From Deltaproteobacteria bacterium (GTDB lineage: Bacteria > Desulfobacterota > Binatia > UBA9968), in contig SHYW01000041.1 in NCBI GenBank assembly GCA_009692615.1, positions 1 through 39,284 on the forward strand: a stretch of 39,284 nucleotides of DNA, written 5' to 3'. The notes under the pieces were generated by a model. It made no database searches. It had not been told where the DNA came from and worked only from the letters and a program-made list of their open reading frames with translations. Both the position numbers and the translations under genes were made by a program. How positions within the stretch are numbered: the stretch's first letter is position 1; every line of letters begins with the position of its first letter. Of this stretch, positions 18,905 to 38,232 are shown piece after piece.

Positions 18905-19022
18905 GAAAAACCCTCTCAGAGTCCTTCGACATGGCTCAGGACGAACGGCGGGAATTTGATATCATGCGCATTTTTCGTTCATGCTGAGGCTCTCGAAGCA
19001 TTCCGAACCTTTTTGCAGCAAC
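18905..19022. repeat. Dispersed intergenic repeat, inverted relative to 26424-26533
   Basis: The segment contains GTCCTTCGACATGGCTCAGG plus ACGAACGG, and ends with TTTTTGCAGCAACCTGCTA. At 26424-26533 the complementary sequence (TTCGTCCTGAGCCTGTCGAA and GGACTCC) and TTTTTCAGCAACCTGCTA recur. It has no coding potential and sits downstream of the RidA-like gene. Confidence 0.6.
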
Positions 19023-26423: not shown

Positions 26424-26533
26424 TGCTTCGACAGGCTCAGCATGAACGGGCTATTACAATCATTTCATTCTTCTATCCGTTCGTCCTGAGCCTGTCGAAG
26501 GACTCCTAAAGAGTTTTTCAGCAACCTGCTATT
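26424..26533. repeat. Dispersed intergenic repeat
   Basis: Contains CTTCGACAGGCTCAGCATGA and, in opposite orientation, TTCGTCCTGAGCCTGTCGAA, so the segment is itself partly palindromic. It ends with TTTTTCAGCAACCTGCTA, shared with 18905-19022, and overlaps the last codons and stop of the solute-binding protein at 26529-27527. Confidence 0.6.
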
Positions 26534-27527
26534 TATATAACTGATCGATAAATCCGCTCTGATCGAGCTGTTTCAAATAAGTCAGGTTGAACAACTCGTC
26601 GGCTTTTAATTTTTTCACCAACGGCTCGCGCGCGCCCATGATATCGAGCGTCGCTTTCACCGCGTTCATGTCGGGATAGGGCTTGCGTCCCATCTGGTGT
26701 TGCGGATGGCTCTTGTAGGCCAGCTCGATCATATCGCGGTCTCGGCTGCGCAGCAGATCGGCGAAATATTGGCTGCTGCGCTCTTTGTCGTTAAGAAAGA
26801 AGCGCACGCCTTCGAGATAACCGCGCAGATATCGATTCATCGCGTCCGATTTTTTCGCAACGATGGCGGGCGTGGTGACGATGGTGCTGCCGAAAAACGG
26901 CAGCGTCGGCATATCGAGCACGCGAAAGCCGTTGCGCTTGGCGTAGGCCGACTCCGCCGATGAAAGCACCGTCGCGTCGATGGCGCCTTTTTCCATCGCC
27001 ACGAAGCGCGCCTGGCCGACCTGCACGATAGCGATGTCTTTGTCCGCGTCCAATCCCAGTTTTTGAAACAGATAGCGCACCATCAGTTCCGAGATGCCGC
27101 CGAAGCGAATGATGCCGACTTTTTTATTTTTAAGTTGCTTGATGTCTTTGATCTCGGGCCGCGTCACTACGTCGTATTCGAGGGTATTCGATTGGGAAAG
27201 TAAGAAAGTCAGCTTAATGCCATGCGACATCGCTTGCAGCGCGGCGATCGGCGCGCGCAAGTCCAAATCGACATCGTTGTTGAGCAGCGCGCTGACCGCC
27301 GCCGGCCCGCCGGTGATCAAGATATGCTCGACATCGAGTCCGTATTTCTCGAACAACCCCGCGCGCTGCGCGATGTAGGAAATGACGACGGTGTTGCCGG
27401 TGACCGAAGCGTAAGAAATTCGGAGTTTTTCGGCGCGGAGCGGCGCTGTCGCGAAAAAAACGATGACCAGCAGCGACAGGCCGAATGGTAAGCGAATCCC
27501 CCGTCCACGTACCCAGTACCCCAACAC
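26529..27527 (-). CDS. NMT1/THI5-like ABC solute-binding protein
   Basis: 332 residues from GTG at 27527, preceded by GGAGTAATGGA. Signal peptide around residues 9-32 (IRLPFGLSLLVIVFFATAP, cleavage after LRA). Binding-fold stretches: AGLFEKYGLDVEHILITGG, LLNNDVDLDLRAPIAAL, KVGIIRFGGISELMVRYL and AMEKGAIDATVLSS. It begins 17 bp after the stop of the candidate selenoprotein gene, so both are probably on one transcript. Ligand unknown. Confidence 0.85.
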   Translation of the reverse strand: MLGYWVRGRGIRLPFGLSLLVIVFFATAPLRAEKLRISYASVTGNTVVISYIAQRAGLFEKYGLDVEHILITGGPAAVSALLNNDVDLDLRAPIAALQAMSHGIKLTFLLSQSNTLEYDVVTRPEIKDIKQLKNKKVGIIRFGGISELMVRYLFQKLGLDADKDIAIVQVGQARFVAMEKGAIDATVLSSAESAYAKRNGFRVLDMPTLPFFGSTIVTTPAIVAKKSDAMNRYLRGYLEGVRFFLNDKERSSQYFADLLRSRDRDMIELAYKSHPQHQMGRKPYPDMNAVKATLDIMGAREPLVKKLKADELFNLTYLKQLDQSGFIDQLYK

Positions 27528-27544
27528 TCCATTACTCCACTCTT

Positions 27545-27811
27545 CTACGTCTTATTCCGCGCCTTCACCCGTTGATTAAGCGACTGCAACACACCCGCGT
27601 CGATAGCCGCGATCACATCCACCGCCGCATCCAACTCTTCCTCCGTCATTCCCGCTTTCCTTGCGTCCGCAAGGCGCCGCTCCACTCACGGATCGCACAG
27701 CCGCATCATCGCGACGGATAAACCGATCAGCATCTTCTCGCGCTCAGTCAGACACTCGACGGCGTGAGCGTCTTTATAGAATGTTCGGAAATCGGCTTTT
27801 TTTGAAGACAT
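27545..27811 (-). CDS. Candidate selenoprotein: small CMD/AhpD-like redox protein with C-x-x-U motif
   Basis: 88 codons from ATG at 27811 (GGGAG 7 nt upstream) to TAG at 27545, with one in-frame TGA at codon 42 (27686-27688). Before the TGA it reads LTEREKMLIGLSVAMMRLCDP, split here as L-T-E-R-E-K-M-L-I-G and LSVAMMRLCDP; after it, VERRLADARKAGMTEEEL and VDVIAAIDAGVL. Both halves fit one carboxymuconolactone decarboxylase/AhpD fold. The TGA falls where the second cysteine of CxxC is expected, giving C39-D-P-U42. The AhpD histidine four residues on is Arg46. A hairpin suited to a bacterial SECIS starts 11 nt after the TGA. Likely a thiol/selenol peroxidase or disulfide reductase. The alternative is a nonsense-mutated gene. 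SelA, SelB and SelC are not in the window. Confidence 0.75.
27659..27674 (-). promoter_or_regulatory. Candidate bacterial SECIS hairpin
   Basis: On the minus strand, 11 nt after the TGA codon, CCTTGC (27674-27669) pairs perfectly with GCAAGG (27664-27659) around the tetraloop GGAC. The first loop G is the 18th nucleotide after UGA, inside the 16-37 nt range described for bacterial SECIS elements, which also want G in the first two loop positions. It lies entirely in coding sequence. Confidence 0.65.
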
Positions 27812-27986
27812 GATTCACTCCCTTAGGTTTTTTGCCCTCACCCTTCTCCTTCGACTTTGCTCAGGACAGGCTCTCTCCCATCGGAATGGGCGAGGGTTAA
27901 GAAGTCGAAACCAGAAACTCGAAACTGATATCGGGCATCTGACTTCTGACAACTGACTACTGACTTCTGGCTTCTGGCTACTGCCC
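27812..27986. other. Intergenic leader between methyltransferase and candidate selenoprotein
   Basis: The 175 bp contain repeat-like text (CTCACCCTTCTCC, GGAATGGGCGAGGG) and a run of CTGACTTCTG/CTGACTACTG/CTTCTGGCTACTG near-repeats at about 27941-27982. No ORF is evident. It could hold the promoter of the selenoprotein/solute-binding-protein transcript, but no clear -35/-10 pair was identified. Confidence 0.4.
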
Positions 27987-29021
27987 CTACGCCGGCTTCA
28001 CGCCGGTGATCAGCGCGTAAGAAAAACTTCCCTTCACATGCGCGTGGTCACCGTGGGAATGCCAGCTGAAATAATTTTTCTTCATGCGCTCGGCCAACTC
28101 CGGCGCTTCCTTTTCCAACTCCAACGCCGCTTCAAGCCAATGGCGTCCGGTGGGGATGCCGTCCATGCCTTCTTGGTTGAACGGATAGGAAATTACGCTC
28201 TTGCGCGGCACGCGGTAGCCGGCCTTGGTCAGCAAACGTTCGATGCTGCTGACGGTGTGAAAGCGGAAGCCGTCGCCATGGGTGCGGCGAAACACTTGGT
28301 TGATCTTGGCTTCCAGCGCCACGTCGATGGCGTCTTTCGATTCTTCGATGACCGGATCGAGGACAACGAAGCGTCCGCCCGGTTTGAGCACGCGCTGCAC
28401 TTCGCCGACGACGCCGGCGGGATTGCCGAAGTGATGCAAGCTGAACGACACGAAGGCGCGATCGAACAGACCGCTCTTGAACGGCAGCTTGTCGGCCTCG
28501 CCGGCGCTCAATTCATAGCGCTCGATGGGATCTTTATGATGATTGCCGACGTCGAGCATCGCCAGCGCTTCGTCGACACCGACGATGCGCCCGGACTGCA
28601 TCTGCTTCGACAACGGCCGGGCGACGCGCCCAGTGCCGGTGGCCAAATCCAAAATCGCCTCGCCGCCCTTGAGCGTCAACGCCTCGATCAACTTCACCGT
28701 CAATTGGCTGCGCATATCCGACATGCCGCGCTGGTCGAACTCGGCGGCGTGGGTCGGATCTTTGAAGCGCGACTTGTGATCGTGATCATGGCCGGCGTCA
28801 TGGGAATGGTCGTGATCGTGTCCGTGCTCGTGGGAATGCGCGGCTGGTTCGTGTGAGTGAGCAGCCTCGTGACCGTGCGAATGTCCGTGCCCGGAATCAT
28901 GCTCGTGACCGTGTTCGTGTCCATGCGCGTCATGCGCATGACCGTGATCATGCTTGTCGTCATGTGCTTCGTGCCCGTGCGCATGCTCGCCCTTATGCTC
29001 ATGCTTATGTTCGTCAGCCAT
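27987..29021 (-). CDS. SAM-dependent methyltransferase with His-rich metal-binding N-terminus
   Basis: 344 residues from ATG at 29021 with AGGA upstream. Residues 1-82 hold about 32 histidines in HxH, HGH and HDH runs with Asp/Glu, like the metal-storage tails of Ni/Zn/Cu chaperones. A class I methyltransferase domain follows: motif I ILDLATGTGRVARPL (about 123-137), VGVDEALAMLDVG, FDRAFVSFSLHHF and LKPGGRFVVLDPV. A second His cluster, FSWHSHGDHAHV, is near the C-terminus. UbiE-like domains of this type methylate quinones, arsenite or other small molecules. The fusion suggests a metal or metalloid link, which is inference. No signal peptide. It lies upstream of the candidate selenoprotein. 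Confidence 0.87.
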   Translation of the reverse strand: MADEHKHEHKGEHAHGHEAHDDKHDHGHAHDAHGHEHGHEHDSGHGHSHGHEAAHSHEPAAHSHEHGHDHDHSHDAGHDHDHKSRFKDPTHAAEFDQRGMSDMRSQLTVKLIEALTLKGGEAILDLATGTGRVARPLSKQMQSGRIVGVDEALAMLDVGNHHKDPIERYELSAGEADKLPFKSGLFDRAFVSFSLHHFGNPAGVVGEVQRVLKPGGRFVVLDPVIEESKDAIDVALEAKINQVFRRTHGDGFRFHTVSSIERLLTKAGYRVPRKSVISYPFNQEGMDGIPTGRHWLEAALELEKEAPELAERMKKNYFSWHSHGDHAHVKGSFSYALITGVKPA

Positions 29022-29076: not shown

Positions 29077-29487
29077 TCACTTCTTCGACATCGCTATCAT
29101 CGTATCCCACTGCTCCTCGGTCAGCTTCATGATCGACAAGCGCGAGTTGCGCACGAGATCGAAGTTGGCGAGCTTCTTGTCCGCTTTGACCTGCGCCAAA
29201 GTCACCGGCTTGGCCAACGCTTTCACCGCCTCGATATCGACCACAAGCATGCGCGGATTGTCTTTTTCCGGATCGGAGTACGCGCCGCCAAGCGCCCGCG
29301 CGATGCCCACGGCTTGGCGCTCGTCACCGGTGTGATAGATGAAAACCAAGTCGCCTTTTTTGATGTCCTTCAAGTGCATCAGCGCGAGATTATTCGCCAC
29401 GTTGTCCCACTTGGTCGATTTGTCTTTCACCAAGTCCTGATACGAATAAACACTCGGTTCGGTTTTGAATAACCAACGGGTTGCCAT
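29077..29487 (-). CDS. EVE-domain protein
   Basis: 136 residues from ATG at 29487 with GGAGG upstream; a frame to 29568 lacks a ribosome-binding site. It covers a full EVE domain: WLFKTEPSVYSYQDL at the start, WDNVANNLALMHLKDIKKGD, VFIYHTGDERQAVGIA and the hydrophobic end MKLTEEQWDTM. EVE/PUA-like domains bind modified bases in DNA or RNA, and many occur in genome-defence or housekeeping contexts. It lies 55 bp upstream of the His-rich methyltransferase. No restriction or defence genes are nearby, so a housekeeping role is more likely. Confidence 0.9.
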   Translation of the reverse strand: MATRWLFKTEPSVYSYQDLVKDKSTKWDNVANNLALMHLKDIKKGDLVFIYHTGDERQAVGIARALGGAYSDPEKDNPRMLVVDIEAVKALAKPVTLAQVKADKKLANFDLVRNSRLSIMKLTEEQWDTMIAMSKK

Positions 29488-29684
29488 GAAATATCCTCCG
29501 CTTCGTTTATAAATCAGCAACAGCCTCCAATACAATCCCTTGACGAAAGGCGACACATCGACCGCCACGATGTGAATGAGTTTGTCGACGGCATGCCAGT
29601 TGAAAAGTCGACGCGGAATAAATTTATTGAAAGACTTAGAAATTGATTGTCAGTCGGAAACTATGGACGCTCGGTTGGCAGCGA

Positions 29685-38129: not shown

Positions 38130-38232
38130 GTCATACCGGCGCAGGCCGGTATCCATCTTTGTTGCCAACGCCACCACTCCCCTGGATGCCGGCCGGAGTC
38201 TATCCTGAGCAAAGTCGAAGGGCCGGCATGAC
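38130..38232. repeat. 103-bp TIR element
   Basis: Starts GTCATACCGGC and ends GCCGGCATGAC (10 of 11 terminal positions inverted), with the hairpin ATACCGGC/GCCGGTAT at 38133-38152 and a TCCTGAGCAAAGTCGAAGGG stretch inside. It sits between the LOG-family and solute-binding-protein genes. Related to 20918-21003. Confidence 0.75.

Follow-up and report, generated by a model that had tools for sequence, protein, structure and literature searches.

CMD and AhpD-like selenoproteins containing a CxxU motif have been described previously from several sources. AhpD-like and CMD selenoproteins of this kind are reported from the Sargasso Sea in the available part of PMC1088965, two AhpD-like selenoprotein groups are listed in that of PMC2398784, and in the available part of PMC13188914 the families NF041047, NF041238, TIGR01926 and NF041537 are tabulated, as well as a PF02627 CMD entry with CxxU. 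As such entries are already catalogued, the statement in an earlier note on this DNA that AhpD-like selenoproteins constitute a known class is well founded. The gene considered here is located in the window, viz. the whole stretch of 39,284 nucleotides that was analysed, and the features of this locus to which reference is made below are as follows.

27545..27811, minus strand: putative selenoprotein gene of the CMD fold, ending in TAG and giving 88 residues if Sec is inserted at UGA 42 (from translation, Pfam CMD match and relatives)
27686..27688, minus strand: in-frame TGA, predicted Sec codon 42, C-D-P-U motif (TGA in 22/22 copies)
27659..27674, minus strand: predicted SECIS hairpin of the bacterial type, with stem CCUUGC/GCAAGG and the GGAC loop at 27668-27665 (from folding and conservation in copies)
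27818..27824, minus strand: ribosome-binding site AAGGGAG, 6 nt 5' of the ATG (read from the sequence)
27987..29021, minus strand: class I SAM methyltransferase (UbiE-like) with a His-rich N-terminus (Pfam Methyltransf_11, 66.1 bits), co-directional upstream in families f1 and f2
29077..29568, minus strand: EVE-domain gene, an open frame with the homologous part from near 29487 (Pfam EVE, 124.6 bits)

The Sargasso Sea/GOS CMD/AhpD-like CxxU selenoproteins (the PF02627 entry in the available part of PMC13188914) have the CMD fold, the CxxU motif and small size in common with the window protein; however, in this comparison, which is by description, EVE and methyltransferase neighbours are not among the features given for that set. 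The family NF041047 (GSU3128), a distant AhpD homologue, likewise consists of short CMD proteins with CxxU, but the window protein falls under its cut-off (27.7 bits against 110). In the NCBIfam search relatives were matched but none of them reached the cut-off, the other scores being 39.7 against 510 bits for NF041537 (ArsM_AhpD_UU), 38.9 against 380 for NF045649 (MduS) and 39.4 against 120 for TIGR04169 (arsenosugar biosynthesis-associated peroxidase-like protein), where the match is to its CMD-type domain. NF041537 and NF045649 both pair an AhpD-like selenoprotein domain with a methyltransferase, and the window domain matches their C-terminal part; however, these two are fusions, whereas the methyltransferase and the selenoprotein of the window are separate genes. 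The window protein also falls short of the cut-off of the AhpD family TIGR00777 (13.3 bits against 191.95), and the relay Glu and His of AhpD are absent from it. The AhpD of Mycobacterium tuberculosis (1knc, 1gu9) has in common with it a helix pair with a CxxC-type motif, at a Z of about 5.5 that is near those of unrelated helical folds, but it is about twice as long and possesses its own Glu118/His137 relay (available part of PMC3141380), which is missing in the window protein. The best solved relative is O27018 of Methanothermobacter (3bey; E 7.7e-9 by sequence), which has CxxC, and His where the window protein has Arg. As far as these libraries show, the gene represents a new subfamily within a known kind of selenoprotein; in the open-licence PMC literature no paper was found on GSU3128, or linking an EVE domain or Binatia with a selenoprotein, one was listed for Binatota with selenocysteine, and the subfamily may be published elsewhere. 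The shortness of the protein, regarded in the earlier note as a peculiarity, proves to be ordinary, as the related NCBIfam profiles are 84 and 109 positions long.

Reading frame, conservation of the TGA codon and the downstream hairpin

The gene reads on the minus strand from an ATG at 27811-27809, through the TGA of codon 42 at 27688-27686, to a TAG stop at 27547-27545, and when the TGA is read as Sec the motif surrounding it is C39-D-P-U42. The earlier note had described a strong ribosome-binding site, a single in-frame TGA at codon 42, and sequence on either side of it belonging to one CMD/AhpD-like domain. All three descriptions hold, with AAGGGAG present at 27824-27818 and the strand, which had been left out, being minus; the Pfam CMD match of the read-through protein (PF02627, 39.7 bits against a gathering cut-off of 23, E 4.8e-10) covers residues 8-72 and hence spans the UGA. 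Since TGA ends 8 of the 14 checked genes in the window, UGA also serves as a stop here, and the view that it is not reassigned genome-wide is borne out.

The residue at the UGA position was compared in 22 orthologous copies, which are not independent of one another; 20 of these are from one class (including "Candidatus Binatia" MAGs) and two from other MAGs. TGA is present at codon 42 in all 22 copies and Cys in none. In 193 genomes searched, 20 strong matches were obtained, inclusive of the window copy, with at least 68% identity and exactly one TGA each. When the 148 class genomes were searched with profile A1, these 20 copies were recovered once more, distributed over 19 genomes and again with one TGA each, and no TGA-free copy was found at E 1e-12. 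These 20 copies are confined to one order, where the gene is found in 10 of the 25 genomes of family f1, in the single genome of f2, and in 8 of the 9 genomes of f3; no match to profile A1 was obtained in G002 to G004, three genomes that belong to the same genus as the window. A scan of genome_contigs yielded 16 loci, of which 14 are Deltaproteobacteria or Candidatus Binatia records, mostly on the same contigs as copies from the 193-genome search, and two (L091, a Proteobacteria record, and L092, a bacterium record) are more distant, with 64-65% identity. All 16 have TGA at the Sec position, although one of the two search patterns spelled Cys there. Further, ten of the weaker matches from the 193-genome search were aligned as distant homologues, and in the nine of these that lack a TGA the residue at the UGA position is Cys in every case, while the tenth (L050) has a TGA. 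The check for homologues with Cys or U at position 42, which the earlier note had recommended, thus gave a positive answer on both counts. In one genome (G028) two copies of the selenoprotein gene are present about 20 kb apart (L068, C1:1621046; L069, C1:1641825).

Selection on the protein was estimated by the NG86 method with pairs of saturated dS dropped (74/231 upstream and 84/231 downstream without the hairpin), and dN/dS was 0.097 before the UGA and 0.114 after it when the hairpin was left out; protein-level selection is similar on the two sides. It will be incorrect to interpret this gene as a pseudogene whose TGA is a chance nonsense mutation, despite a broken copy in G007 and its patchy presence in f1 (10/25 genomes), as on the sequences compared this explanation is refuted by the conservation of both the TGA and the reading frame: the same TGA is found in 22/22 copies, their matched parts contain no further stop, and protein-level selection after the TGA is strong. 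Of the scattered stops and frameshifts in relatives, which the earlier note had named as a ground for doubt, further stops are absent from the matched part of the 22 copies, but the copy in G007 is indeed broken: about 18 codons remain behind the methyltransferase, followed by unrelated sequence. The truncated copy (L097, G007 C122) continues into a cytochrome c-like frame with a CSSCH motif, as judged by eye.

The hairpin CCUUGC-GGAC-GCAAGG begins 11 nt past the UGA, with its loop 17 nt past it, and folded alone it has an energy of -7.7 kcal/mol. Its loop of 4 nt, stem of 6 bp, GG at the first positions of the loop and spacing of 17 nt agree with the four published bSECIS constraints (available part of PMC13188914), which were applied by script. 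However, when the same rules are applied to all 1171 TGA triplets of the window, 17 (1.5%) prove to have behind them a hairpin with at least 6 Watson-Crick pairs, and the hairpin taken alone is weak evidence. It goes beyond chance because it is conserved across the copies. The stem is present in the minimum free energy fold of 21 of the 22 copies (the exception is G013), and five of the seven hairpin codons (+4 to +10) are identical throughout the 22/22 copies; codon +8 differs in one copy, where a U-G pair is retained, and codon +10, which varies, lies outside the stem. Among 56 other degenerate codons (excluding codons +3 and +11, and those whose majority residue occurs in fewer than 15 copies) only one is invariant and the mean pairwise synonymous difference is 0.49, the contrast with the hairpin codons having a Fisher p of 1.7e-5 for copies that are not independent. 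In agreement with this, the hairpin codons have a dS of 0.088 as against means of more than 1 elsewhere. No stem pair has changed on both sides in the 22 copies, because the stem hardly varies, and the evidence for the hairpin is one of suppressed synonymous change and not of covariation. The claim of the earlier note regarding a hairpin that obeys the bSECIS rules 11 nt after the TGA is therefore confirmed, and the hairpin is in addition conserved in relatives; its synonymous-site signature makes it an unusually clear SECIS example. The possibility that the hairpin is a repeat was discarded, as the window contains it only once, if its own match on the other strand with 2 mismatches is left aside. 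A 19-nt version of it had no exact match among viral contigs, and an Rfam search of 26500-28800 gave only two matches, both far under their gathering scores.

If the UGA were instead a true stop, then the gene would encode a 41-residue peptide and the hairpin would regulate the RNA. The conservation of the hairpin at the RNA level and the fact that other genes of the window end in UGA are compatible with this interpretation. However, the codons downstream of the UGA change in the manner of protein-coding sequence, as indicated by the dN/dS of 0.114 outside the hairpin, and they complete the CMD domain, which makes a true stop very improbable.

Selenocysteine machinery and probable decoding of the UGA

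The earlier note also called for a search for selA, selB, selC and selD in the same genome. In the window's own genome, which is 98.7% complete, all of these components were found (SelA, E 3.9e-161; SelB, 410 bits; SelD, 372 bits; tRNA-Sec, 74.9 bits), with selA, selB and selD clustered on contig C70. Among the 19 genomes that carry the gene, 18 give a strong SelA match, and SelB, SelD and tRNA-Sec are each over the cut-off in 17. G025 has neither SelB nor SelD over the cut-off and G013 has no tRNA-Sec over the cut-off, the other Sec parts being present in both. In G009 the gene is present, but SelA reaches only E 5.4e-4 and none of SelB, SelD and tRNA-Sec is over the cut-off; the part of its copy that could be read is intact, the match starting 24 nt from a contig end, and either the loci are missing from the assembly or the machinery was recently lost. 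SelA is also present in the genomes of the two distant loci (in that of L091 the gene is incomplete and begins a contig), and G007, with its broken copy of the gene, has the Sec machinery.

The presence of Cys at this site in TGA-free homologues, and the case of G009, could also be accounted for if some other kind of recoding inserted Cys, Trp or a different standard residue at the UGA. However, the complete Sec machinery, the bSECIS-like hairpin and the ending of other genes at TGA all speak against this, and such decoding is hardly credible. Based on these sequence comparisons, the region 27811-27545 on the minus strand is almost certainly a bacterial selenoprotein gene, in which UGA 42 would be decoded as selenocysteine by SelB and Sec-tRNA with the hairpin, 17 nt further downstream, as their guide. 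The predicted product would be a small helical CMD-fold protein whose C-x-x-U pair stands where a helix begins.

Some other genes with in-frame TGA codons were observed. The selD gene of the window's own genome (L011, C70:1609-2535, minus strand) has an in-frame TGA near its start, and SelD of this genome is probably a selenoprotein as well; a full-length selD with one TGA is found in 22 of the 28 genomes searched, and a partial one in G003. The same genome contains a second CMD-type Sec candidate (L024 1501-1692, minus strand; C13:15325-15516) with CPYU and a hairpin GCAUCC-AGUG-GGAUGC, which matches NF053654 (YciW-related (seleno)protein) as a fragment only (53.7 bits, cut-off 310). The distant homologue L050 (1501-1719, in G107) is likewise a CMD selenoprotein candidate, with CSPU and its own hairpin, and is under all NCBIfam cut-offs. 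The TGA in the CMD gene L022 was set aside, as it is not at the CxxC site.

Active site, neighbouring genes and possible function

In the AF2 model of the protein (mean pLDDT 86.8) the helix starts at residue 40, and in Foldseek 3bey ranks first and RclX (7y4r) second. As the VIA list also contains unrelated helical folds with Z near 5, matches to CMD structures were used only where they had sequence support. The proton relay of AhpD consists of Glu118, Cys130, His132, Cys133 and His137 (available part of PMC3141380), and the relay columns of the window protein were set by alignments to solved CMD relatives, in which M27 is opposite the Glu of 7y4r and 1vke, and R46 is opposite the His of 7y4r, 1vke and 3bey. 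Column 27 is M or I (11 copies each) and column 46 is R in 22/22 copies. The earlier note was thus correct that Arg takes the place of the relay His, and the relay Glu is absent as well, so that both residues are missing throughout the copies of the subfamily. The hairpin stem takes in just one base of the R46 codon, the third, and a His codon would also be compatible with the hairpin; the loss of the relay His is therefore apparently not forced by the SECIS element. Loss of the relay is also seen elsewhere, with Tyr in the His column of L050 and of several Cys homologues.

By analogy with AhpD, whose CxxC pair works in the same manner, U42 may attack a peroxide or disulfide and C39 may resolve the product, and a role as a thiol-selenol peroxidase or oxidoreductase of this kind is moderately likely. 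A selenol is ionised at neutral pH, and for this reason a Glu/His proton relay would be unneeded. However, if C39 and U42 bind a metal without turnover, then the absence of the relay Glu and His in 22/22 copies and the adjoining His-rich methyltransferase would also be explained. This interpretation is unlikely, as a second cluster of ligands was not found and Cys20 is present in just 19 of the 22 copies; H16 is conserved in 22/22 but may lie away from the site.

The genes that recur beside the selenoprotein gene are arranged, from 5' to 3', in the order EVE gene, methyltransferase, selenoprotein gene. In 18 of 20 copies the selenoprotein gene is preceded on its own strand by an EVE gene (the exceptions are G015, and G009, which has no upstream sequence), and the methyltransferase is upstream in 10 of the 11 copies from f1 and f2 (G009 again lacking sequence there) and in none of the 9 from f3. 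The methyltransferase is separated from the selenoprotein gene by 175 nt in the window and by 22 nt in G025, while in G013 the two overlap by 4 nt; in G017 an extra ORF, PIN-like by eye, is inserted between the neighbours. The solute-binding protein to which the earlier note drew attention does adjoin the gene in the window, but it is not a conserved neighbour, the recurring EVE and methyltransferase genes being on the other side; the solute-binding gene was dropped as a part of the unit, as ORFs that cluster with it occur near only 5 of 22 loci and in varying positions. A recurring motif, CCTGAGCNNNNTCGAAGG, has three exact copies in the window (18923-18940, 27848-27865 and 38204-38221), and three matches were reached in 0 of 100 shuffles.

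Due to this arrangement, another explanation is that the selenoprotein serves the upstream methyltransferase, e.g. in metal or metalloid handling, and is not a general peroxidase. The position of the methyltransferase upstream in 10/11 f1 and f2 copies and its overlap in G013 are in accord with this, as are its His-rich N-terminus and the fact that the best NCBIfam matches of the selenoprotein, albeit under cut-off, are methyltransferase/AhpD fusion selenoproteins. Further, within f1 and f2 the methyltransferase was found in 10 of the 11 genomes with an intact selenoprotein gene as compared to 5 of the 15 without it (Fisher p 0.005, phylogeny not controlled). The His-rich N-terminus extends for about 80 residues in the window enzyme, varies in length between relatives, is nearly absent in G012, G024 and G025, and is possibly metal binding. 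However, the methyltransferase is beside none of the 9 f3 copies and was not found in the genome G033 at E 1e-20; its best score is against the UbiE family (76.9 bits, under the family cut-off), with only 43.9 bits against the ArsM/AhpD fusion; and the window enzyme contains no Cys. Arsenite methyltransferases use Cys, and arsenite methylation by the neighbouring enzyme was not adopted in view of this lack of Cys and the score of just 43.9 bits. A partnership with the methyltransferase is therefore a tentative proposal of rather low probability. A more specific form of it, in which the EVE, methyltransferase and CMD-selenoprotein genes would form an operon that is the unfused counterpart of the methyltransferase/AhpD fusions, with the selenol replacing the Glu/His relay and serving a metal- or metalloid-handling methyltransferase, is more doubtful still.

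The preferred reading, viz. a selenoprotein gene in which UGA 42 is decoded as Sec and whose product is a CMD-fold C-x-x-U redox protein, is given a probability of about 0.9 as a whole. This protein would be missed or cut short by gene callers that stop at UGA, and a part of the selenium biology of a largely uncultured group would thereby be overlooked. In addition, with Sec in 22/22 copies and the relay residues absent from 22/22, this subfamily would be a clean natural system in which to test whether an active site with Sec can dispense with its proton relay.
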